Source of the DNA: Pseudomonadota bacterium
GTDB taxonomy: Bacteria; Desulfobacterota; Desulfovibrionia; Desulfovibrionales; Desulfovibrionaceae
Length of the DNA stretch: 34,166 bases
Assembly: GCA_018817515.1 (NCBI GenBank)
Contig: JAHIUD010000012.1
Span: 1 to 34,166, forward strand
Direction: 5' to 3'
The translations under genes and the position numbers were made by a program. This document shows, piece by piece, positions 3,256 to 32,800 of this stretch; positions within the stretch are counted from its first letter, which is position 1, and each line of letters opens with the position of its first letter. The notes under the pieces are model-generated. The model ran no database searches, was not told the origin of the DNA, and saw nothing but the letters and a program-made list of their open reading frames with translations.

Positions 3256-5526
3256 ATGAGCGCGAAAAACACCGCCGACGCCAGTCCCCCTGCAGGATCA
3301 AGCCCTGCGGCAGGCCTTGATCTGTCTGGAGACAACATCTTCCAGACGGTCTTTCAGGCCAGTCTGGCGATCATGTACCTGCTCGACCCCCATACCGGGG
3401 TCATCCTGGATGCCAACCCGGCGGCCAGCGCCTTCTACGGCATCCCGCGCGCGGAGTTGCGCGGCCTGCCCCTGGCGGGCCTGTCCACCCTGACCATGCG
3501 CAAGATCAAGACCATCCTGGCGGAAATTCGCAAAAACGGAAGCGGACACCTGCTCAGCCGACACCGCCTGAAGAACGGCGAGCTGCGCGACGTGGAGCTT
3601 CACGCCACGCCCATGGCCCTGGCCGACGGACGCGAATGCATCTTCATCATCGTCCACGACATCGCTGCACGCATCCAGGCCGAGCGCAACCTGCGCGAGC
3701 GCGAGAGCCTGCTGCGCGCCATCCTGGATTCCGCGGGCGACGGCATCGGCTTCAAGGACCGCGCCCACATCTACCGCGAGGCCAACCCGGCCTTCTGCCA
3801 GCTCCTGGGACGCAACTGCAAGGACGTGCTGGGGCACAAGAGCGCGGACTTCAGCGACCGCCGCAGAAACGCCAAGTACATCGACGAATCCGACAACGAG
3901 GTCATGCGCACGCGCCAAAGCGTGATCTACGAGAGCAACTACACCTGCCCGGAGGGCACCCGCACCCTGAGCGTGAACAAGGCCCCTGTGCTGGACGGCC
4001 AGGGCGACTGCCTCGGCGTGGTCTTCATCGCCCACGACATCACCGAGCAGCGCGTGGCCGAGGCCGCCCTGCGCCAGTCCGAGGGGCTGCTGCGGGCCAT
4101 GCTCCAATCCGCCCAGGACGCCATCTACATCACCGACTCCTTGGGCCTTTTGAGCGAAATCAACCCGGCCTTCTGCGAACTGGTGGACAAGCCGCGCGAG
4201 GCCCTCCTGGGCCAGCCGCTGACCGCCGCCTTCGAGCCCGAGGAGCTGAACATCCAGCAATCCACCAGGCAGCTGGCGCTCGATACCCAGGGCCCGGTGA
4301 ACTTCACCCAGCGCATCAAGCGGCCCGGCCGCGACTCCTGGATCAACGTGGTCAAGACCCCGGTCATCGACGACCAGGGCTACTGCCTGGGTGTGGTCAG
4401 CATGGGCCGCGACATCACCGCCCAGAAAACCGGCGAGATCGCCCTGCGCGAGAGCGAGCGGCGCTTCTCCGTCCTGGTGCACCAGTCCCCGGTGGGCGTG
4501 TTCGAGACCGACGCCAAGGGCAAGCTGACCTTCGCCAATGACCGCATGCTGCGCCTGACCGGCAGGCCGCTTGAGCAGCTGCTCGGCACGGACTGGCTCG
4601 CCAGCATCCACCCGGAGGAGCGCCAGGAGTTCACGCGCGACTGGCACGCGGCCCTGTCCGCCCGGCGCGAGTTCTCGACGGAAGTGCGCCTGCGCACCCC
4701 GCGCGGGACCCTCACCTGGGTCACTACCCTGATGCGGCCCATGCGCGACAACGCCAGCCGCATCGTGGGCTACCTGGGCGCGGTCTCCGACATCAGCGAA
4801 CGCAAGAAGGCCGAGAACATGCGCGAGGATGTGGAGAAGGTCATCCGCCACGATCTGAAGAGCCCGCTCTCGGCCATAGGCAACGCCGCGGAACTTCTGG
4901 AGATGCTCGGGCCGCTCAACGCCGAGCAGACGCACGTGCTGGAGGAGCTGCGCTCCCTGTCCAAGCGCATGTACGGGCTCATCAACCTCTCGCTGGACCT
5001 GCGGGCCATGGAGACCGGCCGCTACACCCTGGAGCCGGAGAGCTTCGATCTTGGCGCGGCGCTGGAGGCCCTCCGGGCCGAGCTGCGGCCGCTGACCGAC
5101 GGCAAGGAGCTCTCCCTGCGCATGAAGGTGGAGGGGCGTGGACCGCTGCTGGTGTTGGGCGAACGCAGGTTGGTGGACACGGTGTTCGTGAACCTGCTGA
5201 AGAACGCCGCCGAGGCCTCGCCCGAAGGCGCGGATATTTTGGTGCGGCTCAAGGCCCAGAAGGGCTTTGCCGTGGCCACCCTGCGCAACAGCGGCGAGGT
5301 GCCGCTGGACATCCGCGAGCGCTTCTTCGAGAAGTACGCCACCTCGGGCAAGCTCCACGGCACGGGCCTGGGGACCTATTCTGCCCGGCTCATGGTGCGC
5401 GCCTTAAACGGCAGCATCGAGCTCGACACCTCGGAGCCAGGCGCCACCACCCTGGTGGTGCGCCTGCCCCTGGCGGAGCAGACGCAGCAGGCAAATCAGG
5501 CCGATCAGGCGGGTCCAGCCGCCTAG
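3256..5526 (+). CDS. Soluble multi-PAS sensor histidine kinase
   Basis: This 756-residue histidine kinase has no membrane segment or signal peptide, so it senses a cytoplasmic cue. Four PAS-type sensor units are visible, at roughly residues 25-135, 150-270, 275-395 and 400-520. Each starts with an FxxxxxSxxDxI-like helix and ends in a C-terminal DIT/DIS segment. The dimerisation and phosphoacceptor domain carries IRHDLKSPLSA with His532, followed by an HATPase domain (NLLKNAAE as N box, GTGLGTYSARL as G2 box) up to about residue 745. The tail is Gln/Ala-rich. No response regulator is encoded next to it, so its partner is elsewhere. It converges on the GGDEF-EAL gene, leaving 82 bases in which I see no clear terminator hairpin. 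Confidence 0.92.
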   Translation: MSAKNTADASPPAGSSPAAGLDLSGDNIFQTVFQASLAIMYLLDPHTGVILDANPAASAFYGIPRAELRGLPLAGLSTLTMRKIKTILAEIRKNGSGHLLSRHRLKNGELRDVELHATPMALADGRECIFIIVHDIAARIQAERNLRERESLLRAILDSAGDGIGFKDRAHIYREANPAFCQLLGRNCKDVLGHKSADFSDRRRNAKYIDESDNEVMRTRQSVIYESNYTCPEGTRTLSVNKAPVLDGQGDCLGVVFIAHDITEQRVAEAALRQSEGLLRAMLQSAQDAIYITDSLGLLSEINPAFCELVDKPREALLGQPLTAAFEPEELNIQQSTRQLALDTQGPVNFTQRIKRPGRDSWINVVKTPVIDDQGYCLGVVSMGRDITAQKTGEIALRESERRFSVLVHQSPVGVFETDAKGKLTFANDRMLRLTGRPLEQLLGTDWLASIHPEERQEFTRDWHAALSARREFSTEVRLRTPRGTLTWVTTLMRPMRDNASRIVGYLGAVSDISERKKAENMREDVEKVIRHDLKSPLSAIGNAAELLEMLGPLNAEQTHVLEELRSLSKRMYGLINLSLDLRAMETGRYTLEPESFDLGAALEALRAELRPLTDGKELSLRMKVEGRGPLLVLGERRLVDTVFVNLLKNAAEASPEGADILVRLKAQKGFAVATLRNSGEVPLDIRERFFEKYATSGKLHGTGLGTYSARLMVRALNGSIELDTSEPGATTLVVRLPLAEQTQQANQADQAGPAA

Positions 5527-5608: not shown

Positions 5609-8600
5609 CTACGCTTGCGCCACCTCGACGCCGCCGCGGCGCACCAGTTCCAGGACCTCGGCCAGGGGCATGGGCCGGGCAAAGAGGTACCCCTGCCCCA
5701 GGGTGCAGCCCAGGGCCAGGAGCTGTTCGCGTTGCTCGGCGGTCTCCACGCCCTCGGCCATCACGCCCATGCCCAGGCCCGACGCCAACGACACCACGGC
5801 CTGCACGATGCGCAGGCTTTGGCGCCCCTGCTCCATTCCCGTGACGAAGCGCATGTCCACCTTGAGGGCGTCGATGGGATACTGCTGCAAGGAGAAAAGC
5901 GAGGAGTAGCCGGTGCCGAAGTCGTCCAGGGCCACGCGCAGGCCGCTCTCGCGCAGTTGCCAGAGCCTGCGCGCCGCAACGCGCGGATCATGCATGAGCT
6001 CGGTCTCGGCAAGCTCCACCACGACGCTGCCCGGAGCCACTCCGGACGCCGCCATGGCCTGGGCCAGGGACTCGGCCAGGTCGCCCTGGCTGAACTGCCG
6101 CCCGGAGATGTTTATGTGCAGGGGCAGCGGCGGTGCGCCGGGGACCAGCTTCTGCCAGTTGGCGGCATCGCCGCAGGCCTGGCCCAGCAACCACTGGCCA
6201 AGCGGCAGCATGAGCCCGCACTCCTCCGCCGCAGCCAGAAACTCCGCCGGCGGCAAGAGCCCGCGAGTCTCGTGGCGCCAGCGCAGCAGCGCCTCCAACC
6301 CGGTAAGCGCGCCGCTCTTCATGTCCACGATGGGCTGGTAGAATAGCTCGAAGTGCCGCCCGTCCACGGCCAGGCGCAGCTCGGTCTCCAGCGTCAGGTG
6401 GCGCATGGCCTTGGCCCGCAGGCCGGAATGGAAGACCTTGTAGCGGCCCCGGCCCAGGTCCTTGGCGCGGTACATGGCGATGTCGGCGTCGCGCAGCAGG
6501 TCGTCGGTGTTGTCGTACTCCCCGGAGGAAAAGACGATGCCGATGGAGGCCGAGGTGTGGATGTCGCGCCCGCCGACCTGCACCGGATGGCGCACATCCT
6601 CCAGGATGCGCCCGGCGATGTGGATGGCGTCGCGCGGGGCGGCGATGCCGTCGAGCAGCACCACGAACTCGTCGCCGCCCAGGCGGGCCACGGTGTCCAC
6701 GTCGCGCACCACGGCCTCGAGCCTGCGGGCCACGGTGGTCAAAAGCGCATCGCCCGCCAGATGCCCCAGGGTGTCGTTGATGCGTTTGAAACGGTCCAGG
6801 TCAAGCAGGAGCACGGCCAGGCGATGGTCCGGGCTGCGCAGGGAGCGCTTGAGCGAGTGCTCCAGGCGGTTGCCGAACAGGGCGCGGTTGGCCAGGCCGG
6901 TCAAGGTGTCGTGCAGGGCGTGGTGCGTCAGCTTCTTCTGGGTCTTCACGCGCTCGGTGACGTCGCGGATGCTTTCGATGGCCCCGATGACCGCGCCCTC
7001 GGTGTTGAACAGCGGGGTGGCGATGGCCGAAAGGTGCACCGGCCGCCCGCCCATGTTTGGCACGGCGATCTCCGCGCGCAGGGTGCGGCCCACGCGCACC
7101 ACGCCGGGATAGAGCCGTTCCAGCTCCGGGTCATCCTCGTCGGCGCGCAGCACCATGTCGATGAGCGTGGGCCTGCGCTCATTGTAAAAGGGCTCGGCAT
7201 AGGCGTATTGGTTCTGGCCCACCATCTGCCCGGCGCTGACCCCGGTGATCTCCACTATGGCCCGGTTCCAGGCGATGACCCGGCCCGCGCGGTCGATGAC
7301 GAAAGTGGCGTCGGGCAGAAAGTCCAGGATGTCCATGAAGCGTTGCTCGGATTCCTTGAGCTTGCGCTCGGCGTGCTGGCGCTCCTCTATCTCCCGGGTC
7401 AGCGAGCGGTTGCGCTGGGTCAGCTCGTCGGTGCGCTGCGCCACCACGCCTTCCAGCTCCAGGTTGAACTGCGCCAGCTTCTCGTAGCTGGTCTCCATCT
7501 CGCGCGCGTAGGATTCCTTGATCTCAAGGGCGCTGATGATACCGCTGCGCGCCGCCTCCATGTGCTCGGCCATCTCATTGAAGCCCTCTGCCAGGGCGCC
7601 CAGCTCGTCTTCCCGGTCCACGCTGACGCGCGTGCCGAGCCGCCCCTGGGTCAGGGCCTGGAGGCCCCCGCGCAGAATCTGGATTGGCCGGGTGAAGGAG
7701 TTGGCCACGATGAAGCCCAGGACCAGGGCCAGCAGCAGGGCCAGGGCCACGGAGAGGAGCACCAGCCGGGTGGTGTCGTGGATGCCCAGGCGGATGTCCT
7801 CATTGTCCATCAGGGACATGAGCGTGGCCACGGCCCGGCCCTGGTTGTCGCGCAGGGTGGCCGCCGCCATGGCGTAGGAGCCGCCGGGCCCGGGCCGGAT
7901 GCCCAGAGACACGGGCTGCTCCTGCCCCCCGGGCGCTGGCAGGTCAAGCCCGGAGGCCACGCTCCCGCCATGCTCGTCCACCAGGGTGCTGACGATGCGG
8001 CCGGAGCCGTCCCAGCGCAGGGCGAAGTCGGCGCGCACCTGATCCTTGAGCGCGGTGAGCTGGGTTGCGCCCACGGGATAGGTCACGGCCACCACGCCCT
8101 GAACCTGCATGGTACCGGGCGCAAGCACCGGGGCAAAGGCCCGGATGCAGAGGCCCGAGGGGGCGGCATAAAAATCCGCGCTGCCGACGAGGTCCAGCGC
8201 GTTCTTCAGGGCCAGGCTGTCCAGCGGTGTGGCGGACCGCCCGGCCAACCCGTCGTCCGCGCCCACTCCGGCGGACGCAACGAGCCGCCCGTTCTTGTCG
8301 AAGACCTCCACCAGCCCCAAGAACCACAGGGAGCGGGCCTCTTCCAGCAGGCCATCCAGACCCTGCGCGCCGATGCCGGCGCGCACCTCGGAGAGCCCGG
8401 CCAGGTGCCGGGCCGTGGTCTCGGCCTGGCGCGAGAGGCGCAGAAGCGAGTTCTGGGCCTCGTGCAGGGCGGCCACGGACTGCTCGCTCAGGTCGCTTTC
8501 CATGCGCCGCAGGTGGATGAACATATTGGCCACCGTGGCCAGCGTCACCGTGGCAAGGATGACCAACAGCAGCACGACGACCAGCCGGTTGCGCACGGAG

Positions 8601-8644
8601 TGCCGCAGAGAGCGGGGAAGCTTCAGCTTCAGGCGCACAGGCAT
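5609..8644 (-). CDS. Membrane GGDEF-EAL bifunctional c-di-GMP enzyme with periplasmic sensor, HAMP and PAS
   Basis: This 1011-residue inner-membrane protein makes and/or degrades c-di-GMP. Order: TM1 about 17-42, a periplasmic region of about 245 residues, TM2 about 287-315, HAMP about 315-370, coiled coil, PAS about 440-560, GGDEF, EAL. The cyclase site is intact (RLGGDEF, GGDEF at 656-660) and has the inhibitory RxxD five residues upstream (RDVD). The phosphodiesterase also looks competent: EAL at 784-786, HINIS, ELAETEL, DDFGTGYSSL, LKVDM and AEGVET. The ATG at 8644 overlaps the upstream stop as TGATG, with GGGAG just before it; GTG at 8647 is an alternative. It is the last gene of an operon with two binding proteins, suggesting its periplasmic domain is controlled by their ligands. 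Confidence 0.93.
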   Translation of the reverse strand: MPVRLKLKLPRSLRHSVRNRLVVVLLLVILATVTLATVANMFIHLRRMESDLSEQSVAALHEAQNSLLRLSRQAETTARHLAGLSEVRAGIGAQGLDGLLEEARSLWFLGLVEVFDKNGRLVASAGVGADDGLAGRSATPLDSLALKNALDLVGSADFYAAPSGLCIRAFAPVLAPGTMQVQGVVAVTYPVGATQLTALKDQVRADFALRWDGSGRIVSTLVDEHGGSVASGLDLPAPGGQEQPVSLGIRPGPGGSYAMAAATLRDNQGRAVATLMSLMDNEDIRLGIHDTTRLVLLSVALALLLALVLGFIVANSFTRPIQILRGGLQALTQGRLGTRVSVDREDELGALAEGFNEMAEHMEAARSGIISALEIKESYAREMETSYEKLAQFNLELEGVVAQRTDELTQRNRSLTREIEERQHAERKLKESEQRFMDILDFLPDATFVIDRAGRVIAWNRAIVEITGVSAGQMVGQNQYAYAEPFYNERRPTLIDMVLRADEDDPELERLYPGVVRVGRTLRAEIAVPNMGGRPVHLSAIATPLFNTEGAVIGAIESIRDVTERVKTQKKLTHHALHDTLTGLANRALFGNRLEHSLKRSLRSPDHRLAVLLLDLDRFKRINDTLGHLAGDALLTTVARRLEAVVRDVDTVARLGGDEFVVLLDGIAAPRDAIHIAGRILEDVRHPVQVGGRDIHTSASIGIVFSSGEYDNTDDLLRDADIAMYRAKDLGRGRYKVFHSGLRAKAMRHLTLETELRLAVDGRHFELFYQPIVDMKSGALTGLEALLRWRHETRGLLPPAEFLAAAEECGLMLPLGQWLLGQACGDAANWQKLVPGAPPLPLHINISGRQFSQGDLAESLAQAMAASGVAPGSVVVELAETELMHDPRVAARRLWQLRESGLRVALDDFGTGYSSLFSLQQYPIDALKVDMRFVTGMEQGRQSLRIVQAVVSLASGLGMGVMAEGVETAEQREQLLALGCTLGQGYLFARPMPLAEVLELVRRGGVEVAQA

Positions 8645-10203
8645 CACTCCCAGTAAGCCTTGGCGAAACGGATGGCGGCGCCCGTCGGTTGCAGCACTAC
8701 GCCCTTGAGGCCTTCACGCAGGGCCACGGTGTCGCGCACGTGGGCCAGGGGCACGGCGGGGACCTCCGCGGCCAACAGGCGCGCGGCCTGGCGGAACAGG
8801 CCACTGCGTTCGCCCTCATCCCGGCTGGCCTCGGCGCGGTCCAGCAGGGCTTGAAAAGCCGCGCTCTGCCAGTGGGAGAAGTTGCCGCGCGAATCCAAAC
8901 CGAACTTGTAACGCAGCAATTCATGTGGGTTGGGCGCATCAAAGGTCCAGCCAGCCAGGCACATGTCATTGTCGCCTCTGTTGGCCACGGCCACGTACTT
9001 GGCCCAGGGCACGACGACGATGTGCGCCCGGATGCCCACCCCGGCCAGAGCCTGACGGATGGCCTGAGCCATGCGCCGGGGCTCGGGCAGGTAGGGCCGG
9101 GGGATGTCCATGACCTGCAGGGTGACGTCGAAGCCCTTGGCCAGCCCCTCCTGGGCCAGCAGCGCGCGGGCCTGGGCCGCATCGCCCCTGGCGTTGGGCT
9201 CGCCGGGCACGAAGCCGTTGTCCAGCAGTCCGGGCGGCAGCACGCTTGTGGCGGCCTGGCCGGCAGAGCCATAGACCAGCCGGGTCAGGGCCTCGCGGTT
9301 CAGGGCCAGGCGCACGGCCAGGCGCACGCCGACCTTGCGCATATGCCCGCGCTGGGTGTTCAGGGCCAGGTAGGCGATGTTCAGTCCGGCCACCCGCAGC
9401 ATCTGCACCCCGGGCATCTTCTCCAAGAGCGGCTGGTCCGAGGGTGGGATGCCGGTGACGGCGTCGGCGCGGCGGGTCTGAAACTCAAGAAAGCGCGCAC
9501 CGGCGTCGGGGATGGTGCGGATCACCAGGCGCTCCAGGCGCGGCACGCCGCCCCAGTAGTCCTGATTGCGCACCAGGGTGATGGACTCGCCCCGGCGCCA
9601 CTCGGCGAATTTGAACGGCCCGGTGCCCACGGGATGCTGCCCGATGTCCGGGCCCCATTTGGCCAAGGCCTGGGGGCTCAGGATGGGCGCCTGATGCGCG
9701 GCCAGCGAGTTCAAGAGCGAGGCCGAGGGGCGCTTGAGCCGAATGCGCAGGGTGTCGTCATCCAGGGCCTCTGCCCCGGCCACATGCTCGAACAGGTATT
9801 TGGCCGTGAACATCCCGGGCGTGTGAAAAGGGTTGGCCGGGTCGATCTGGCGCATGATGGACAGGGCCGCGGCCTGGGCGTTCATCGGACTGCCGTCGTG
9901 GAAGCGCACGCCCCGGCGGATGCGGAAGGTCCACTCCCGGCCATCAGGCGACACGGCCCAGGACTCGGCCAGGGCGGGCTCCACCTGAAACCCGCTGTCC
10001 TTTATGCGCACCAGGCCCTCGCAGATCTGACACACAACCAGGGTCGACTCGGAGTCGGTAGCCCGCGCCGGGTCCAGGGTCAGGGAGTCGCCGCCGCGCA
10101 CCAGGATCAGCGTGCCGGTGGACTCTGCGGCCTGGGCCGGAGCAAAGGCGGCAAGCAGACAGGCCAGGATCAGGAGCGCGCGCAGGGTGGTGGCGTATTT
10201 CAT
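8644..10203 (-). CDS. Periplasmic peptide/solute-binding protein, DppA/OppA (SBP_bac_5) family, copy 2
   Basis: A 519-residue extracytoplasmic binding protein with an N-terminal signal peptide (cleavage near AQA-A, residues 23-26). Family hallmarks are visible: early SLTLDPA, FHDGSP, PVGTGPFKF and YLALNTQ. It is a paralogue of the protein encoded just upstream; both share these blocks and end in IRFAKA plus three residues. The start is fixed by ATGA overlap with the upstream stop (ATG at 10203); a longer open frame reaching 10527 is only a shadow of the upstream gene. Its stop overlaps the next ATG as TGATG. No permease or ATPase gene is adjacent, so a sensory role towards the GGDEF-EAL protein is as likely as transport. 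The ligand is unknown. Confidence 0.9.
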   Translation of the reverse strand: MKYATTLRALLILACLLAAFAPAQAAESTGTLILVRGGDSLTLDPARATDSESTLVVCQICEGLVRIKDSGFQVEPALAESWAVSPDGREWTFRIRRGVRFHDGSPMNAQAAALSIMRQIDPANPFHTPGMFTAKYLFEHVAGAEALDDDTLRIRLKRPSASLLNSLAAHQAPILSPQALAKWGPDIGQHPVGTGPFKFAEWRRGESITLVRNQDYWGGVPRLERLVIRTIPDAGARFLEFQTRRADAVTGIPPSDQPLLEKMPGVQMLRVAGLNIAYLALNTQRGHMRKVGVRLAVRLALNREALTRLVYGSAGQAATSVLPPGLLDNGFVPGEPNARGDAAQARALLAQEGLAKGFDVTLQVMDIPRPYLPEPRRMAQAIRQALAGVGIRAHIVVVPWAKYVAVANRGDNDMCLAGWTFDAPNPHELLRYKFGLDSRGNFSHWQSAAFQALLDRAEASRDEGERSGLFRQAARLLAAEVPAVPLAHVRDTVALREGLKGVVLQPTGAAIRFAKAYWE

Positions 10204-11756
10204 TGGATGGTGGCCTTGGCGAAGCGGATGACGCCGGACGGATGGTTGACGATGCCCTGGACGTATCGGCTCCGGGCCAGGGTCTGGTTGGCGTGGGCCA
10301 GGGGCAGCAGCGGGACCTCCCGCCCGGCGATGTCCTGGACCTGGGCGAAGAGGGCCTCGCGCATTTTCTGGTCCGCGCTGGTCCTGGCCTGGGCCAGCAG
10401 ATCGTGCACCCGCCTGCCACGGTAGAAGCTGATGTTGGACGCGTGCGGCTTCTGGGCGTTGTCCAGGTCCAGCAGGTGCTCCAGAATGTCGGAGGCATCG
10501 CCGGTGCTGACCCAGCCGAGCAGGCACAGGTCGTGCTCTCCGGCATAGGCGCGGGCCAGGTAGGTGGCCCAGTCACAGGTCACTATCTTGGCGCGGATGC
10601 CCACGCTGGCCAGGTTCTCCTGGATGAAGCGGGCGATCTTGTCCGGCTGGGGCATGTAGGGCCGGGACACGGGCATGGCCCAGAGGGTGGTCAAAAAGCC
10701 GTTGGGCAACCCAGCCTGGCGCAGCAGCCTGCGGGCCAGGGCCGGATCATAGGCGGCGGCGGGCGCGGCCGGGTTGTAGCCCGGCATGCCCGGCGGCACC
10801 AGGGTCCGGGCCTGGGTGGCCTGCCCCCGGTAGATGCTCTTGACCAGTGCCGGACGATTGATGGCGTGGGCGATGGCCAGGCGCACCTTGGGATTGTCCA
10901 GGGGGGCGCGCTCGGTGTTCATGGCCAGATAGCCCACGTTCATGCCGGGCCAGGAATCCAGCACCAGGGCCGGATTGCGGCGCACCTCGACCTGCTGCTC
11001 CGGGGTCAGGGCATCCATGGCCTGGATGTTCCCGGCGCGCAGCTCCAGCATGCGCACCAGCGGGTCGGGCACGACCTTGAACACCAGGGCGTCGATCTTG
11101 GGGGCGCCGCCAAAGTACTTGGGGTTGGCCTCCAGCACGATGCGCTCGCCCTTGAGCCAGGAGCCGAAGATGAAGGGGCCGGTGCCCACGGGTCGGCGAT
11201 CGAAGCTCTCGCCCAGGGACTTCACCGCCGTGGGGCTGACGATGTAGGCCGAGTGCCGCGCCAGGGCCGCGAGGAAGAGCGGGTCCGGCTCCTTCAGGGT
11301 GATGCGCAGGGTGTGCGCGTTCAGGGCCTCCACCGAGCGCACGCCTCTGAGGGTGTCGTCCATCTTGCTGAAATGGGCCCGAAAATAAGGGTGCGCCGGG
11401 TCGATCTTGCGCAAGAGCGAGAAGCGCGCGGCCTCGGCGTCAAAGGCCGTGCCGTCGTGAAAATTGACGCCGGTGCGCAACGTGAAGACGTAGGCCAGCC
11501 CGCCTTCGGCCACGCTCCAGGAGGCGGCCAGGGCGGGCTCCACAATAGTGGAGTCGTCCCGGTAGCGCACCAGGCCATCGAAGATGTTCTCGATGACCAT
11601 GGCCGACTCGTTGTCCAGGAATTTTGCCGGGTCGAGGAAGGAGGCGTCCGCGCTGCGCGCGAAGACCAGAGTCTTGTGCCTGGGCTGGGCGGCCAGTTGG
11701 CCCCCGGTGAGCAACAGCGTCAGCAGTACCGCGATGAGGGTTGTGAAACGCACCAT
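10200..11756 (-). CDS. Periplasmic peptide/solute-binding protein, DppA/OppA (SBP_bac_5) family, copy 1
   Basis: A 518-residue binding protein and first gene of the three-gene operon. The start chosen is the ATG at 11756, with AGGGAG 4 bases upstream and a classic signal peptide (cleavage near residue 23, LAA-Q). An in-frame start near 11813 would add a non-signal leader and is less likely. Family blocks seen: ASFLDPA, NFHDGTAF, RPVGTGPFIFGSW, VGYLAMNTE and LGWVSTGDASD in the ligand-binding lobe. It probably arose with copy 2 by tandem duplication. Its 3' end overlaps the next gene as ATGA, implying translational coupling, and the codons for the conserved RFAKA end supply an AAGG that can act as ribosome-binding site for copy 2. 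The ligand cannot be read from the sequence. Confidence 0.9.
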   Translation of the reverse strand: MVRFTTLIAVLLTLLLTGGQLAAQPRHKTLVFARSADASFLDPAKFLDNESAMVIENIFDGLVRYRDDSTIVEPALAASWSVAEGGLAYVFTLRTGVNFHDGTAFDAEAARFSLLRKIDPAHPYFRAHFSKMDDTLRGVRSVEALNAHTLRITLKEPDPLFLAALARHSAYIVSPTAVKSLGESFDRRPVGTGPFIFGSWLKGERIVLEANPKYFGGAPKIDALVFKVVPDPLVRMLELRAGNIQAMDALTPEQQVEVRRNPALVLDSWPGMNVGYLAMNTERAPLDNPKVRLAIAHAINRPALVKSIYRGQATQARTLVPPGMPGYNPAAPAAAYDPALARRLLRQAGLPNGFLTTLWAMPVSRPYMPQPDKIARFIQENLASVGIRAKIVTCDWATYLARAYAGEHDLCLLGWVSTGDASDILEHLLDLDNAQKPHASNISFYRGRRVHDLLAQARTSADQKMREALFAQVQDIAGREVPLLPLAHANQTLARSRYVQGIVNHPSGVIRFAKATIQ

Positions 11757-11925: not shown

Positions 11926-11987
11926 CAGATTGTATTGGTGGATTTTTTATGGGTCATGGGGTGTTTGATCACGCGAGGGGGGGGATC

Positions 11988-13079
11988 ATGGAGACGAAGA
12001 GGAGCCTGCTATCCGGCAAGGGCGAAATTTTGATTGCGGGGGCCGTCATCGGCCTGGCGGCCGTGCTGCTGCAATACGCCGGGAACCCGGCCAACATGGG
12101 CGTGTGCGTGGCCTGCTTCCTGCGCGACATCGCAGGCGCGCTCGGCCTGCACCGGGCCGCGCCCGTGCAGTATCTGCGCCCGGAGATACCGGCCTTTGTG
12201 CTGGGTTCGGTGGCTGCGGCCATGGTCGGCGGCGAGTTCCGCGCGCGCGCCGGGTCCGCCCCGCTGCTGCGCTTTTTCCTGGGCATGGCGGCCATGGCCG
12301 GGGCCCTGGTGTTCCTGGGCTGCCCCTGGCGCGTGCTGCTGCGCCTGGCCGGTGGCGACGGCAACGCGCTCTTCGGCCTCGCCGGGCTCTTGACCGGCAT
12401 CTATATGGGCCACCGCTTCTACAAGGCCGGGTTCGCCCTGCCCGCCAGCCAGGGCCAGTCGACCTTCTCCGGTCTGGCCATGCCGCTGGCCGCCCTGGGG
12501 CTGCTGGCCGTCCGCATGCTGCTCTCCCCGGACCCGGAAACGGGCTCGCTCGGCTGGATCTGGGCCTCGGCCAAGGGACCGGGCGCCGCCCACGCGCCGC
12601 TGCTGGCCTCCATCGGCGGGGGACTGCTCATCGGCGTGCTGGCCCAGCGCAGCCGTTTCTGCACCGTGGGCTCCCTGCGCGAGCTGTTCACCCGGCGCCA
12701 GATGCACCTGATCTACGGAGTGGCCACGTTCCTGCTTGCGGCCCTCATCGGCAACCTGCTCCTGGGCCAGTTCCACCCCAGCTTCGAGGGCCAGCCCGTG
12801 TCGCACACCGCGTCGCTGTGGAACTACCTGGGCATGGTGGTGGCGGGCCTGGCCTTCTCCCTTGCCGGGGGCTGCCCGGGCCGCCAGCTGATCCTCTCCG
12901 GCGAGGGCAGCAGCGACGCCGGCGTCTTTGTGCTGGGCATGCTCACCGCCGGAGCCCTGGCCCACAACATGGGCTGGGCCAGCTCTCCTGCCGGGCCGGG
13001 ACCCAACGCGCTGGCCGTCATCGTGGTGGGCCTGGGTTTCTGCCTGGCCGTGGGCTTCTTCAACCGCAAAAGCGCCTAG
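11988..13079 (+). CDS. yedE: YedE/YeeE-family membrane transporter, putative selenium (or thiosulfate-type) uptake
   Basis: A 363-residue polytopic membrane protein with about ten hydrophobic segments. Cys-containing family motifs are visible: GVCVACFLRD near the N-terminus, FLGCPWRVL, QRSRFCTVGSLRELF, and GGCPGRQLILSGEGSSDAG near the C-terminus. The family moves sulfur or selenium compounds such as thiosulfate; this pattern resembles the YedE branch proposed to serve selenium metabolism, which is inference. I start it at ATG 11988, after a GAGGGGGGG Shine-Dalgarno-like run. The in-frame ATG at 11949 lacks a clear site and would add 13 hydrophilic residues. No yedF, selD or other selenium gene is within the window. 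A strong bidirectional hairpin terminator follows. Confidence 0.82.
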   Translation: METKRSLLSGKGEILIAGAVIGLAAVLLQYAGNPANMGVCVACFLRDIAGALGLHRAAPVQYLRPEIPAFVLGSVAAAMVGGEFRARAGSAPLLRFFLGMAAMAGALVFLGCPWRVLLRLAGGDGNALFGLAGLLTGIYMGHRFYKAGFALPASQGQSTFSGLAMPLAALGLLAVRMLLSPDPETGSLGWIWASAKGPGAAHAPLLASIGGGLLIGVLAQRSRFCTVGSLRELFTRRQMHLIYGVATFLLAALIGNLLLGQFHPSFEGQPVSHTASLWNYLGMVVAGLAFSLAGGCPGRQLILSGEGSSDAGVFVLGMLTAGALAHNMGWASSPAGPGPNALAVIVVGLGFCLAVGFFNRKSA

Positions 13080-16203: not shown

Positions 16204-17142
16204 ATGTCTTTAGTGATCAATCACAACTTGATGGCAATGAATGCCGCCCGCAACCTGCAGAACTCCTACGGCGCCCTGGCCACCTCGACCAGACGCCTGT
16301 CCTCGGGACTGCGTGTCGGCAATGCCGCAGACGACGCCGCTGGCCTGGCCATCCGCGAACTCATGCGCGCAGACATCAAGAGCATGAACCAGGGCATCCG
16401 CAACGCCAACGACGCCATCTCCATGATCCAGGTGACGGACGGAGCGCTGCAGATCATCGACGAGAAGCTCATCCGCCTGAAGGAGCTTGCCATGCAGGCT
16501 GCCACCGGCACCTACTCCTCGGATCAGCGTCTGATGATCGACTCCGAGTACCAGGCCATGTGCTCGGAAATTACCCGAATCGCCAACTCGACGGATTTCA
16601 ACGGCATTTACCTGCTGAACGGAAACCTGTCGGGTGATTTCAGCACGCACAACGGCAGCGGCATCAACTCCAACGGCGCGCTGAAGATCCACTTCGGGTC
16701 CGGCAACGATTCCTCCGAGGACTACTACTACGTGTCCATGGGCTGCGCCACGGCCTCGGCCCTGGGCATCGGGCACCTGACCAGCCACAAGTACGCAGCG
16801 ACCGACCCCCTGTACAACACCGCGGCAGACAACGCGGGCAAGTCCATCTCCACCCAGGAGCTGGCCCAGCAGGCCCTTGGCGCGCTCAACCAGGCCATCA
16901 TCTCCAAGGACAAGATCCGCGCGAGCCTGGGCGCCATCCAGAACCGCCTGCAGAACACCATCACCAACCTCTCCATCCAGGCGGAAAACCTGCAGGCGTC
17001 CGAGTCGCGCATCTCTGACGTCGACGTGGCCTCGGAAATGACCGAGTTCACCCGCCAGCAGATCCTCAGCCAGTCGGCCGTGGCCATGCTGGCCCAGGCC
17101 AACTCCCTGCCCAGGATGGCCATGCAGCTCATCCAGGGCTAG
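16204..17142 (+). CDS. fliC: Flagellin, filament subunit
   Basis: A 312-residue flagellin. The conserved N-terminal D0/D1 region is clear (MSLVINHNLMAMNAARN, then RRLSSGLRVGNAADDAAGLAI), as is the C-terminal D1/D0 region (LGAIQNRLQNTI, ending QANSLPRMAMQLIQG). The variable middle of about 110 residues is short, so the filament surface is small. It polymerises outside the cell after export by the flagellar type III apparatus and carries no signal peptide. Two Cys residues in the middle (MCSEI and MGCATA) are unusual for flagellins, which mostly lack Cys. A sigma-54 promoter and strong ribosome-binding site precede it and a GNRA-looped terminator follows, so it is a single-gene transcript. Only one flagellin copy lies in the window. 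Confidence 0.97.
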   Translation: MSLVINHNLMAMNAARNLQNSYGALATSTRRLSSGLRVGNAADDAAGLAIRELMRADIKSMNQGIRNANDAISMIQVTDGALQIIDEKLIRLKELAMQAATGTYSSDQRLMIDSEYQAMCSEITRIANSTDFNGIYLLNGNLSGDFSTHNGSGINSNGALKIHFGSGNDSSEDYYYVSMGCATASALGIGHLTSHKYAATDPLYNTAADNAGKSISTQELAQQALGALNQAIISKDKIRASLGAIQNRLQNTITNLSIQAENLQASESRISDVDVASEMTEFTRQQILSQSAVAMLAQANSLPRMAMQLIQG

Positions 17143-27929: not shown

Positions 27930-29720
27930 ATGCCCAGAGTCCAATCCATCCAAATGCGCGTGTTGCTGTGGGGCTGGGGTGTGCTCATCGTCGGCCTGGC
28001 CCTGGCCTTCTGGCGCTACAGCGCCTCCCTGGACGAGGAAACCGCCCGCGACTTCGAACGCGAGACCCTGACCCGCCTGGAGACCGTGCAGTGGCTGCTG
28101 GACCGCGGCGGCCCCTTCAAGGAGCCGCGCGACCGCCACGACTTCCTGCAAACGCTGGCGGCCAACATGGGCATGCGCATCAGCCTCATCCAGGGCGGCG
28201 AGGTCCTGGCCGACTCCTCCCGGGCCTTCGGCGACCTGGCCACGATGGACGACCACTCCACAAGGCCTGAAGTGCTGGCCGCCCTGGGCAACGAGCTGGG
28301 CAAGGCCACCCGCCACAGCACCACGCTGGACCGCGACATGATCTACATGGCGCGCAAGCTGCCGGGCCAGGAGGGCGAGGACGCGACCGTACTGCGCCTG
28401 GCCGCGCCGGTCAGCCAGGTGCGCATGCACATGCAGCGCATGCGCTGGGCGCTCTTGGCCGCCGTGATCCCCCTGCTCCTGGGCTCCGGCATCCTGCTCT
28501 ATCTTCTCTCGCGCACCCTCACCTCTGGCATCGCCCAGTTCACCGAAGCCGCCCAGGCCATCGGCGAGGGCGACTACCGGCGCAGGATACTGTTCTATCC
28601 CGCGGCCGAATTCCAGCCCCTGGCCGAGGCCATCAACCGCATGGCCAAGAAGATCAAGAAGAACATGAAGGTCATCGAGAACCAGCGCGGCGAGCTTTGG
28701 GCCATGTTCGAGGGCATGACCGAAGGCGTCATGGTGCTCGACACCGCGGGCCGCATCCTGCACGTGAACCCTGCCATGTCGGCCATCTTCCCCCGCGCGC
28801 AGGAGTTCCTGGGCCGCGCCCCGCTGGAGGCCACCATGAGCCTGGAGATCCAGAACCTCGTGGACACCCTCATGGCCGGGGAAACCACCGAGCCCGTCAG
28901 CAGGCAGATCGAACTCAAGAACCGCCACTGCGCGGAGATGACCGTGGTGCCCTTCCGCGACCATAAGTTCCGCCCCAGGGTCATCCTCATCTTCCACGAC
29001 ACCAGCGAGCAGAAGCGCGTGGAGCGCGTGCTGCGCGACTTCGTGGCCAACGCCTCGCACCAGCTGCGCACCCCGCTCACCAGCATCCGGGGCTACGCCG
29101 AGACCCTGCTCGACGCGCCGCCCGCGGATGACGCCAAGCGCCGCGAGTTCCTCGACATCATCCGCGCCAACGCCGTGCACATGAGCAAGGTCATCGCAGG
29201 CATGTTCGCCCTGGCCAAGAGCGAGCGCGGCGGCAAGCGCCCCAAGGACCTGAACGCCAGCGTGCTCCAGGCCCTGGAGCATGCGCTCATGAACTGCACC
29301 TTCGCCGCGCAGGAGAAGGACATCCACCTCGAAGTGGAGGCCCTCCCGGAAGGCCTGCCCAACGTGGCTGCGGACCCCGACGGCCTGCTGCAGATTGCCG
29401 ACAACCTCCTGGACAACGCCATCAAGTACTCCCCCATGGGCACCGCCGTGCGCATCAGCGCCGAGACGGACGGCCAGAGCGTGACCATGCGCTTCCACGA
29501 CCAAGGCCCTGGCATCAGCCCCGAGGACCAGAAACGCATCTTCGAACGCTTTTTCCGCGCCGACAACAACGACGTGGACGGAGCGGGCAGCGCCGGGCTC
29601 GGCCTGGCCATCTGCCGCCACATCGCCCGCAACTACGGCGGCGAGGTCTGGGTGGACTCCCCGGCCGACAAGGGCGCCGGCAACGGCAGCGTGTTCAGCG
29701 TGCGCCTGCCCGTGGTCTGA
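27930..29720 (+). CDS. PhoR-like transmembrane sensor histidine kinase
   Basis: A 596-residue inner-membrane kinase. TM1 spans about 9-29 and TM2 about 171-195, enclosing a 140-residue periplasmic sensor. HAMP follows to about 245, then PAS at about 255-360. The phosphoacceptor motif is FVANASHQLRTPLTSIRGY with His377 (Gln in place of the usual Glu). The HATPase has DNLLDNAIKYSP, DQGPGISPED, FERFFRAD and GLGLAIC. The HAMP-PAS-HisKA layout is that of PhoR, but there is no phoB or pst gene nearby, so the signal is open. AAGGA 6 bases upstream supports the ATG at 27930. A GC-rich hairpin (29733-29768) follows the stop. Confidence 0.92.
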   Translation: MPRVQSIQMRVLLWGWGVLIVGLALAFWRYSASLDEETARDFERETLTRLETVQWLLDRGGPFKEPRDRHDFLQTLAANMGMRISLIQGGEVLADSSRAFGDLATMDDHSTRPEVLAALGNELGKATRHSTTLDRDMIYMARKLPGQEGEDATVLRLAAPVSQVRMHMQRMRWALLAAVIPLLLGSGILLYLLSRTLTSGIAQFTEAAQAIGEGDYRRRILFYPAAEFQPLAEAINRMAKKIKKNMKVIENQRGELWAMFEGMTEGVMVLDTAGRILHVNPAMSAIFPRAQEFLGRAPLEATMSLEIQNLVDTLMAGETTEPVSRQIELKNRHCAEMTVVPFRDHKFRPRVILIFHDTSEQKRVERVLRDFVANASHQLRTPLTSIRGYAETLLDAPPADDAKRREFLDIIRANAVHMSKVIAGMFALAKSERGGKRPKDLNASVLQALEHALMNCTFAAQEKDIHLEVEALPEGLPNVAADPDGLLQIADNLLDNAIKYSPMGTAVRISAETDGQSVTMRFHDQGPGISPEDQKRIFERFFRADNNDVDGAGSAGLGLAICRHIARNYGGEVWVDSPADKGAGNGSVFSVRLPVV

Positions 29721-29768: not shown

Positions 29769-29860
29769 ATAACCCGGCGCGCCGTGCCATAATGAGTTCA
29801 GATCGCGTCTGGCCGCGTTTATGCGGCGCGGTGCGAAATCGCTCAGCCTGACGGGTGCCG

Positions 29861-32800
29861 ATGGCTAGATCCGAGCACACCCAACGCGCCTGCGTCCTCC
29901 TCCGGCGCGCCCTCGTTTGCGCACTTCTCGGCGCAACGCTTCTCTTGTGCCAGGCGGCCCCCGGCCAGGCCGCGCACCTCAAGCATGTCCTGGTCCTGCA
30001 CGCCTACCACCAGGGGTACCAGTGGACGGACAACATCCAGTCCGGCCTCGCCGAGACCCTGGGGCGCCTGGCTCCGGGCGCCATAATCCACGTGGAATAC
30101 ATGGACACCAAGCGCCAGCCCCTGCCCAGGGAATTCAACCTGCTGGCGGATTTCTATGCCAAGAAATATGAAGGCTTCCGGCCCGACGTCATCCTCGCCA
30201 GCGACGACAACGCGCTCGACTTCCTGCTCCTGCACCGCGACCGCCTGTTCCCAGGCTCGCCGGTCGTCTTTTGCGGCGTCAACGACTACCAGCCCGAGCG
30301 CCTGGGCAAGGCGCAAGGCTACACCGGCGTGTCCGAGCGCGCGGACATAGCCGGGACCATCGAGGTCGCCCTCAAGCTCATGCCGTCCATGCGGCGGCTG
30401 GCGATCATCAGCGACACGACCGAGTCCAGTCGCTACAACCACAAGATCGCCCTGGAGGCGGTGCAACCCTTCCTGGGCCGGGTGGAGGTGCAGGACCTGG
30501 CTGGTCTGCCCTTCGGCGAGATGGCCTCGGCCCTGTCCACCCTGTCCCCGGACACGGCCATCCTGCACTTGGGCCTGCTGCGCGACCCGGACAACCAGAC
30601 CATGGACCTGGCCGAGTCCCTGAACTTCATCCGCAGGCACACGCCCCAGCCAATCTTCAGCTCCTGGGACTTCTCCTTTGACCACCACGTGGTGGGCGGC
30701 ATCATGGTCAGCGGCGTGCACCAGGGCCAGGTCATGGCCGAGCTGGCGGCGCGCATCCTGAACGGGGAGCGCGCGGACGACATCCCCGTGGTGACCCAAA
30801 GCCCCAACACGGCCATGTTTGACTACAACGAGCTTAAGCTCCAGGGCTTCTCCCTCAAGAACCTGCCCCAGGGCAGCATCATCCTGAACCAGCCCCAGGG
30901 GCTGTGGCAAAGCCACTGGGTCTGGCTTGTGCTGGTCGGTTCGCTGTTCGTGATCATGGCCGCGGCCATCGGGCTCTTCTGGATAAACATCCTGCGCCGC
31001 CGCAAGGCCGAGGCCCTGCGCAGGGTCTCGGAACGCCGCTACCGCGAATTCGTGGAGGCGCTCTCCTTCGGTGTGGTGGAGCTGGACCTGGAGGGGCGCA
31101 TCATCTTCGCCAACCCCGGCAGCTACGCCATCAGCGGCGCCACAGCAGGGAGCCTGCCCGGCCGGAGCATCCTGGATCTGGCCACCTCCGACGAGGCACG
31201 CCGGACCGTCAAAGCCTTCCTGACCGCTGCGGCCAACGCCCCGCAGCCCCCGGCCTCGGCCCTCATCCGCCTGGACCGTTTCGACGGCGGCACGGCCGAC
31301 CTCAAGCTGGACTGGCTCTGCCTGCACGATGCCGAGGGCCGCGTCACGGGCTTTTTGACCGCCGCCACGGACCTGACCGAGCTGCGCCGGTCCGAGCGTG
31401 AGCGCGAGGCCCAGCATCGCTTCACCACTTCAATCATGGACGCCAGCCCGACTCCCATCTACGCCAAGGACATGCAGGGCCGCTACGTCCGCGTAAACCG
31501 TGCCCTGTGCGAGTTCCTGGGCCGCAGCGAGCAGGAGATCCTGGGGCTGCGCGTCGAAGACGTCTGTCCGGCGGACTTCGCCGGGCGCATTGCCGACCTG
31601 GACGCCCTGCTCCACGAGCACCAGGGCCAGCAGGTCTTCGAGGCCCAGGCCCCGGACAGCCAAGGCCGCCTGCGCGATCTGCTCTACGTGCGCTCCCTGT
31701 ACTACGACGCGACAGGGCATCCTGAAGGCATCGTGGGCACCATGACCGACATCACCCTGCGCAAGCAGACCGAGGCCGATCTGCGCGAGAGCCGGGAAAA
31801 GTACCGCGTCATGTTCGAGAGCCTGCCCCTGGCCCTGGCCGTCACCGACACCTCCGGCCGCTTCCTGGAAATGAACCGCGCGGCCGAAGATCTCTTCGGC
31901 AATCCGCGCGAGGAACTCCTCGGCGTGCCGCCCCTGGAGCGGCCGTTCGCAGTGCTGAGCGAGGACGGTACCCCCATTGGAATCGACGAATACGTTAGCG
32001 TGCGCTCCGCCCGGCGGCAACAAATAGTCCAGGAAGAACAGCAGATACGCCGGGCGGATCACTCCATCCGTATTGTTTCGGTCACGGCGGCGCCCCTGCC
32101 CCTGCTGGGGTTCGGGGCCATGCTGGCGCTGACGGACATAACTGAGCGCAAGCGCCTGGAGCAGATCATCCAGAGCAGGCTGACGGCGGTCACCAGCCCC
32201 CCGGGCGACACCCCGGACCTCACCTTCACCGACCTCTTCAACCTGAAGGACATCCAGGCCATGCAGGATGCCTTCGCCCAGGCCGTGGGCGTAGCCTCCG
32301 TCATCACCAGTCCCGAGGGCCAGGCCCTGACCCGGCCGAGCAATCCCAGCAGGCTGTGCCAGTACATCCAGAACTCCATAAACGGGCAACGGGCCTGCGA
32401 GGCCGCCACCCACGCCCTCACCAGGCCGGGAACCACGCCCGGCCCGCACATCTGCCCCTCAAGCGGCCTCTACACCGGCGTCGCCTCCATCCGTGGCGGC
32501 GGCCGGGAGGACGACCGCGTCCTGGCCTACTGGTTCATCTGCCAGGCGCGCCCCGCCGAGAGCGACCCGGAGACGCTCATGGCCGGAGCGGCAACCTTCG
32601 GCCTGGACCCCGCAGTGTACCGCAAGAGCCTGGACGCCGTGCCGGTCATGGACAGCAGCCGCTTTACGGAGGTCAACACGGCGCTCAGCCGCATGGCCGA
32701 GCAGTTCTCCGAGCTGGCGCTTCGGAACATGCAGCAGGCGCGCTACATCGGCGAGCGCGAACGCGTCGAGGAGGCCCTGAGCCGGGCCAAGGAGGCCGCC

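Follow-up and report, generated by a model that had tools for sequence, protein, structure and literature searches.

Genetic organization of the locus

The window, the whole 34,166-nucleotide stretch of DNA analysed, carries a compact reverse-strand unit in which two solute-binding protein (SBP) genes precede the gene of a membrane receptor-enzyme:

10200..11756, (-) strand: SBP1, 518 aa, a solute-binding protein of family 5 (SBP_bac_5), encoded at the head of the unit
10200..10203, (-) strand: ATGA overlap of the SBP1 stop and the SBP2 start
8644..10203, (-) strand: SBP2, 519 aa, likewise a solute-binding protein of family 5; adjoins the receptor gene in the genus
8642..8646, (-) strand: TGATG overlap of the SBP2 stop and the receptor start
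5609..8644, (-) strand: membrane receptor-enzyme, 1011 aa, with TM helix, predicted dCache periplasmic domain, TM helix, HAMP, PAS, GGDEF and EAL
11949..13079, (+) strand: YedE-type putative selenium transporter; closest flanking gene past SBP1 and divergent from it

The reading frames, strands and overlaps agree with the initial annotation, which had described SBP1, SBP2 and a GGDEF-EAL gene overlapping by ATGA and TGATG; a GTG at position -1 provides the receptor gene with an alternative start to the ATG. The annotation had also proposed a search for the SBP-SBP-GGDEF/EAL order in relatives. Both the order and the tight junctions recur in related genomes, so the arrangement is more than chance. 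Measured to the nearest candidate start, SBP-receptor junctions range from -5 to +7 nt in all 12 loci found, and SBP-SBP junctions from -1 to +12 nt in all nine tandem pairs. The further claim that no transporter accompanies the genes holds for ABC systems, as neither a permease nor an ATPase gene lies beside the unit, but the adjoining YedE-type gene does encode a transporter, one that is not of the SBP-dependent ABC kind. Within the genus this gene travels with the module, of which it is a putative member.

Domain structure of the receptor-enzyme

The receptor-enzyme combines a periplasmic input region with two catalytic domains:

7778..8509, (-) strand: sensor domain in the periplasm, spanning about residues 46-289, with a dCache fold by prediction; histidine kinases of other lineages share the domain
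7556..7708, (-) strand: HAMP domain, residues 313-363 (Pfam)
6947..7324, (-) strand: PAS domain, residues 441-566 (Pfam)
6446..6919, (-) strand: GGDEF domain, residues 576-733 (Pfam), in which the RxxD I-site and the GGDEF motif are both intact
5672..6382, (-) strand: EAL domain, residues 755-991 (Pfam); intact motifs EALLRW, N, E, DDFGTGYSS, K, EGVE and Q

Hydropathy analysis places two TM helices at about residues 20-45 and 290-318, leaving about 244 periplasmic residues between them, in keeping with the roughly 245-residue domain first proposed. Both active sites had likewise been called intact, and the GGDEF, RxxD I-site and EAL motif residues are indeed all present in the sequence. Among seven orthologues compared, the GGDEF motif is intact in each of the six that are readable, and the EAL motif is kept in all seven, G006 deviating at positions that flank it. 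The G003 orthologue holds unread bases, and loss of its GGDEF motif is not claimed.

The sensor domain model (pLDDT 82.1, pTM 0.72) retrieves dCache domains in Foldseek with E values down to 6.9e-08, including LuxQ (3c38, 3c30), PctA and DctB. It displays the dCache layout, with two PAS-like subdomains after a long helix at the N terminus, the whole lying between the two TM helices; the fold of the periplasmic domain is thus predicted to be dCache. Pfam gives no Cache match on the receptor protein, and the dCache_3 cut-off falls between related kinases, with L059 above and L031 below it.

Direct binding of small ligands is frequent among dCache domains, and the SBPs could therefore be accessory. 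The domain would then sense a small molecule by itself, and the SBPs would be co-regulated scavengers that make no contact with it. The presence of PctA and DctB, amino-acid- and carboxylate-binding dCache receptors, among the best fold matches speaks for such an arrangement, but LuxQ is likewise among the matches, and the amino-acid signature RxWY...D is not apparent by eye in the sensor-domain alignment. An SBP_bac_5 gene directly adjoins the sensor gene in all 12 loci found, a pattern not easily accounted for if the sensor were self-sufficient, and direct sensing appears improbable.

Properties of SBP1 and SBP2

Pfam assigns SBP_bac_5 to SBP1 and SBP2 (E 8e-96 and 8e-90, respectively), and in the PDB both match chains of DppA and HbpA/GbpA best. 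The N terminus of SBP1 is signal-peptide-like as judged by eye. The "peptide-type" designation of the initial annotation is a family label for both proteins and no more.

The two proteins differ at one position of functional interest. DppA Asp408 is described as the anchor of the peptide amino terminus (PMC3295651). In the alignment, its equivalent is missing from SBP1 and from all nine members of the SBP1 clade; the SBP2 proteins of the genus carry Asp in six of seven cases and Glu in the seventh (G006), so that an acidic residue is kept. This difference makes it likely, at the level of sequence, that SBP1 and SBP2 bind different ligands, and SBP1 is probably not a binder of ordinary peptides. 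dN is lower than dS in all 15 comparisons, and the dN ranges for SBP1 (0.107-0.179) and SBP2 (0.126-0.191) indicate that SBP1 is conserved like SBP2.

Distribution and co-inheritance of the module

The host is a relative of sulfate-reducing bacteria. Searches covered its Humidesulfovibrio-like genus (15 genomes) and the order (348 genomes), mostly draft assemblies; only the best candidates per genome were scored, 6 in the order-wide sensor search and 13 in the receptor search, so that the counts are lower bounds. At E <= 1e-150 the receptor occurs in at least 7 of 59 genomes, all within the genus, and thus in at least 7 of its 15 genomes. SBP2 accompanies it in all seven and SBP1 in six, with 63-100% SBP1 identity across these six. 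The remaining genome (G012) keeps SBP2 and the enzyme without SBP1; therefore, SBP1 is not indispensable. A 1037-aa frame in G012 was considered as an SBP-enzyme fusion and rejected, its extra N-terminal part having no Pfam match and being read as a frame extension. In G004 the corresponding site is syntenic but for the missing module.

The sensor domain is present in at least 12 of the 348 genomes of the order, making the module rare, and a search across the phylum returned own-genus members only (2/395). The tandem SBP pair is kept in 9 of the 12 loci, across two output contexts, with the SBP2-type gene as receptor neighbour in the tandem loci. At G338 one SBP is seen and the contig ends there; at G063 both SBPs fall outside the two clades described below, and one is divergently placed. 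The SBPs of the G338 and G337 loci were located by tblastn.

These patterns bear on whether both SBPs address the receptor. SBP2 might be the sole sensor partner, with SBP1 acting as a ligand buffer or as a competitor that tunes SBP2, and the position of the SBP2-type gene beside the receptor, its retention as the only SBP in G012 and the absence of the Asp408 anchor from SBP1 are all consistent with this. We nevertheless regard such a division of labour as rather unlikely, given that SBP1 is as conserved as SBP2 and that the pair persists in tandem with either output.

Exchange of the output domain and SBP phylogeny

In five of the 12 loci, all outside the genus, the sensor is attached to a histidine kinase instead of GGDEF-EAL. 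Pairwise comparison without HAMP and PAS covered three of the five kinases and retains sensor homology in all three (34% identity, 9e-43; 32%, 1e-42; 27%, 6e-19). In the SBP tree, SBP1 and the first SBPs of the kinase loci form one clade (100/99), and SBP2 and the second SBPs form another (98/98), in which the second SBPs of G337 and G338 sit on long branches. On this phylogeny, the SBP duplication predates the GGDEF-EAL/histidine kinase exchange.

Other SBP matches were rejected as module members. Those adjoining an M14-peptidase-like protein (G045 and G053) occupy a separate branch of the tree, and weaker matches in G048, G055, G058 and G045 have Dpp/Opp-type permease or ATPase genes as neighbours. 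As a control, these are four of five SBP matches outside the module clades, and they adjoin permease or oligo_HPY ATPase genes; around the fifth (G053, C301), one of the two scanned neighbours gives a formamidase-family match and the other gives none.

Sensor function versus import

The source genome contains three SBP_bac_5 genes only, two of them in the module. None of its 16 BPD_transp_1 permease matches lies on the contig of the module. Its single OppC_N permease match lies on C100 and its single oligo_HPY ATPase pair on C77, and no SBP_bac_5 match is found on either contig; the C100 permeases lie at a contig end, which cuts off the neighbour on that side. Placement of the SBPs with dpp/opp permeases in relatives, which the initial annotation had named as counter-evidence, is not found at the 12 module loci: oligo_HPY ATPase or OppC_N permease matches occur on 0 of 12 module contigs, some of which are short (5-18 kb).

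SBPs are able to serve transporters in trans, and the C100 and C77 genes would fit SBPs that feed an Opp/Dpp-type transporter from another part of the genome, their operon with a c-di-GMP enzyme being incidental. This reading is very improbable. Thirteen of the 15 genus genomes carry the third, core SBP (C27) at 78-92% identity, among them six of the eight that lack the module; six of these eight have Opp-type ATPases, and the transporter therefore does not need SBP1 or SBP2. In addition, the SBP pair remains beside the sensor even where the output is a histidine kinase. The SBP pair thus most likely works as a sensor and not as a nutrient importer, because distant relatives keep the pair and the sensor but attach a kinase. 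Co-inheritance, the kinase exchange and the separate core SBP together strongly support, on genomic grounds, the original proposal that the SBPs serve a membrane signalling protein.

Proposed signalling mechanism

We consider it probable that the products of the three genes make up a single extracytoplasmic sensor, in which the SBPs dock on the dCache domain and set c-di-GMP; the docking, its ligand dependence, the difference in ligands and the direction of the response are what we infer. Two secreted family-5 SBPs would bind ligands in the periplasm, and a closed, ligand-loaded SBP, SBP2 first of all, would dock on the dCache domain of a receptor dimer. The docking signal would pass through TM2 to HAMP and PAS and shift the balance of GGDEF versus EAL, setting the c-di-GMP level, with SBP1 supplying a second, different input, probably not an ordinary peptide, to the same receptor.

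A more tentative elaboration, which we hold to be conceivable without favouring it, is a modular two-input receptor in which the diverged SBPs, one for peptides and one for another ligand, act in competition or cooperation at a single dCache domain, the front end being plugged into either a kinase or a c-di-GMP enzyme. Opposite responses to two ligands via SBP1 and SBP2 are possible; if the two-input reading is true, it would allow a single GGDEF-EAL protein to answer two ligands with opposite outputs, by way of two proteins and not one.

Comparison with known systems

LuxP, an SBP, docks on the dCache-type periplasmic domain of LuxQ, to which the modelled domain is similar in predicted fold; that couple differs in its single sugar-type SBP, kinase output and quorum signal, AI-2. 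ScrB-ScrC of Vibrio parahaemolyticus joins an SBP-like periplasmic protein and a GGDEF-EAL membrane protein in one operon, and differs from the module in its SBP family, its single SBP and the signal synthase ScrA. NspS is PotD-like and polyamine-binding, a family to which neither SBP here belongs, both being SBP_bac_5 with DppA/GbpA as best matches. SBP1 and SBP2 share that family with the DppA, OppA and GbpA proteins of ABC importers, but have no adjoining permease or ATPase, and the SBP1 clade is without Asp408.

In the account of NspS-MbaA from Vibrio cholerae, a signalling SBP controls a membrane GGDEF-EAL protein, and ligand occupancy shifts cyclase versus phosphodiesterase activity (PMC8967002); homologues are reported in Sinorhizobium meliloti (PMC9993111). 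As in that system, an SBP gene forms a unit with a membrane GGDEF-EAL gene without an ABC transporter of its own, and the receptor is of the same kind, with a periplasmic domain between two TM helices, HAMP and both catalytic domains with intact motifs. Unlike NspS-MbaA, the module has two family-5 (DppA-like) SBPs instead of one, its SBP-sensor part also occurs joined to a histidine kinase, and its receptor carries consensus GGDEF/EAL where MbaA is given SGDEF/EVL motifs (PMC8967002). SBP control of GGDEF-EAL enzymes is also attributed to Trimble and McCarter 2011, as cited in PMC11113362, which gives the genes of characterised SBP-kinase couples as adjacent or very close in 10 of 11 cases. 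Judged by titles and the starts of abstracts, a literature search returned no described system of a family-5 SBP with a GGDEF protein; the earlier statement that no system of exactly this form is described stands to that extent, with NspS-MbaA, one SBP of another family with GGDEF-EAL, as a close precedent.

Implications for c-di-GMP signalling

Gene order, co-inheritance and the output exchange point to the input proteins of a c-di-GMP enzyme. For most c-di-GMP enzymes, to our knowledge, no ligand has been described. Family-5 SBPs lend themselves to purification and ligand screening, which would open the ligand of a GGDEF-EAL receptor to direct test. According to one review (PMC8846402), SBP_bac_3 is the sole member of the periplasmic-binding-protein clan to have been studied as a domain of c-di-GMP networks. 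The output exchange constitutes a natural experiment, in which a like SBP pair and sensor are found on two output types.

A tandem SBP gene pair overlapping a GGDEF-EAL receptor gene

The window comes from a genome of 3.6 Mb in 114 contigs, and the same locus is seen in Humidesulfovibrio sp. and Desulfovibrionales assemblies. The module and its neighbours are arranged as follows.

3256-5526, plus strand: multi-PAS histidine kinase lacking a receiver, convergent with the GGDEF-EAL gene
5609-8644, minus strand: receptor, 1011 aa, Pfam matches to HAMP, PAS, GGDEF and EAL
8644-10203, minus strand: SBP2, 519 aa, Pfam match to SBP_bac_5
10200-11756, minus strand: SBP1, 518 aa, Pfam match to SBP_bac_5
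11949-13079, plus strand: YedE-type putative selenium transporter (TIGR04112), divergent to the SBP gene
16204-17142, plus strand: flagellin, about 4.4 kb from SBP1, conserved near the module
27930-29720: another histidine kinase, preceding the next gene
29855-33940, plus strand: large PAS-PocR-histidine kinase-receiver protein

The reading frames, their shared minus strand and the overlaps ATGA (SBP1/SBP2) and TGATG (SBP2/receptor) bear out the coupled SBP1-SBP2-GGDEF-EAL unit described in the initial annotation. For both SBPs the closest PDB chains are DppA and HbpA/GbpA and the top NCBIfam model is DppA, at 310 and 250 bits; these scores fall far under the cut-off of 1005, so the name DppA does not fit SBP1 or SBP2.

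Structurally, the receptor holds about 244 residues between two hydrophobic helices, for which a model built from 12 homologous sequences (alignment A4) predicts a dCache layout (mean pLDDT 82.1, pTM 0.72). Among the Foldseek matches to this model are chemoreceptor dCache domains and those of DctB and LuxQ; TM-scores by query length are 0.24-0.48 across the 50 matches listed, a likeness of fold and no closer. The window's receptor has no Pfam match to Cache. The GGDEF, RxxD and EAL-domain motifs are all unbroken in its sequence, in keeping with the earlier proposal that both active sites are intact. Among the seven receptor orthologues, GGDEF is intact in all six that are readable and the EAL motif is present in 7/7, with G006 departing near other catalytic positions. 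Should the c-di-GMP output act on motility, the neighbouring flagellin gene would be pertinent.

Co-inheritance within the genus

A search with the receptor at E <= 1e-150 matches 7 of 59 relatives (the window's own genome included), all within the 15 Humidesulfovibrio-like genomes, and the tandem SBP pair with its GGDEF-EAL receptor, a gene order that the initial annotation proposed to seek in relatives, recurs in these genomes of the genus. SBP1 is found at 63-100% identity in six of the seven receptor-bearing genomes, G012 having SBP2 only, and the G006 module is split across two contigs. In the window and the five other contiguous loci (6/6), the module is flanked by the PAS kinase gene and by a YedE gene divergent beside the SBP gene. 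G004 keeps the neighbouring genes in order and has neither the module nor YedE; a functional link between the two is possible. G001, G005, G009 and G010 have the PAS kinase gene and no module gene in the stretch fetched (in G005 only 2.8 kb beyond), and the absence count leaves out G007 and G011, whose stretches end before or inside the PAS kinase gene, and G014, which has no RsmB anchor. Identity of the multi-PAS kinase is 71-79% in five genomes that have the module and 52-54% in five that do not; the partial G011 sequence gives 70%.

A shared sensor domain with two kinds of output

Across the order, the sensor profile A2 at E <= 1e-15 identifies 12 of 348 genomes; across the phylum, it matches 2 of 395 sampled genomes, both from the window's genus. 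Seven of the 12 sensors carry GGDEF-EAL and five a histidine kinase, with a receiver domain in G035, G038, G337 and G063 and none in G338. Because A2 already contained two kinase sensors, three of the five kinases were in addition compared pairwise with HAMP and PAS excluded, and homology held at 34% (9e-43), 32% (1e-42) and 27% (6e-19). An SBP_bac_5 gene adjoins the sensor gene in 12/12 loci, and a tandem pair is present in nine (G000, G002, G003, G008, G013, split G006, G035, G038 and G337); the others comprise G012 with SBP2 alone, G338 with one SBP visible at a contig end, and G063 with one adjacent and one divergent SBP. Measured to the nearest candidate start, SBP-receptor junctions span -5 to +7 nt (12/12) and SBP-SBP junctions -1 to +12 nt (9/9). 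The G063 module has a further histidine kinase as its neighbour (L060, 2308-6654), which matches Cache weakly and adjoins an SBP gene of the Peripla_BP_6 family; the two may be a second SBP-kinase couple using a different SBP family.

A tree built from 29 SBPs resolves two clades: one unites SBP1 with the first SBPs of the kinase loci (100/99), the other SBP2 with their second SBPs (98/98). The duplication is thus older than the output swap, through which the gene order (first SBP, then second SBP, then receptor) was retained. However, the second SBPs of G337 and G338 lie on long branches, and neither clade takes in the two SBPs of G063.

Relation to transporters and known systems

The alternative, that these SBPs are transporter components, predicts dpp/opp genes nearby in relatives. 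An oligo_HPY ATPase or OppC_N permease match occurs on the module's contig in 0 of 12 loci, although several contigs are short and the absence is weaker evidence there. In contrast, four of five SBPs matched by the SBP1 query but outside the module clades stand beside Dpp/Opp-type permease or ATPase genes; the fifth has neither among the two neighbours scanned. In G045 and G053 (L033 8413-13689, L034 1148-6284), a protein of 1150-1184 aa that carries an M14 carboxypeptidase domain is encoded next to an SBP_bac_5 gene, possibly a peptide-processing pair.

The window's own genome has scattered Opp/Dpp-type parts: a third SBP on contig C27 (L040), which has no permease match, an ATPase pair on C77 (L062), and one OppC_N permease at the end of C100 (L064). 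C77 also carries two permease genes about 4 kb from the ATPases, separated by unrelated genes and lacking an OppC_N match, and neither C77 nor C100 has an SBP_bac_5 gene. These parts may function as one transporter. The C27 SBP (78-92% identity) occurs in 13/15 genus genomes, including 6/8 lacking the module, and Opp-type ATPases in 12/15, including six of those eight; transporter parts with their own SBP therefore occur whether or not the module is present. Together, the SBP neighbour of 12/12 sensors, the output swap and the separate C27 SBP support the earlier view that the SBP pair would serve a membrane signalling protein rather than a transporter.

This arrangement has partial precedents. 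Genes of SBP-controlled kinases are usually adjacent to the SBP gene (PMC11113362), and receptor-binding SBPs span at least 13 families (PMC9602780). NspS-MbaA joins one SBP to a bifunctional GGDEF-EAL receptor, in which norspermidine favours the cyclase and spermidine or the apo state the phosphodiesterase (PMC8967002); a sensor SBP that gives a GGDEF-EAL protein opposite responses to two ligands is thus already known. There, however, a single SBP of another family gives both responses, whereas here two family-5 SBPs are present. The literature searched, from which many journals are missing, yielded no account of two family-5 SBPs in tandem with a GGDEF-EAL protein.

Predicted ligand sites of the two SBPs

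DppA Asp408 forms a salt bridge with the amino terminus of the bound dipeptide, and its replacement in HbpA2 accompanies lost peptide binding (PMC3295651). The SBP1 clade lacks an equivalent in 9/9 members (one-residue gap in eight, Ser in one). Genus SBP2s have Asp in 6/7 and Glu in G006; elsewhere the two SBPs of G063 and the second SBPs of G337 and G338 have Asp at this position, whereas Gln occupies it in the second SBPs of G035 and G038. This difference suggests that SBP2 could take a peptide-like ligand, while that of SBP1 is probably something else. The near match to GbpA and the YedE neighbour are the only grounds for naming glutathione-like peptides and compounds of selenium or sulfur as candidates. 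At the DppA Arg355 position, Arg is present in 21/21 aligned SBPs.
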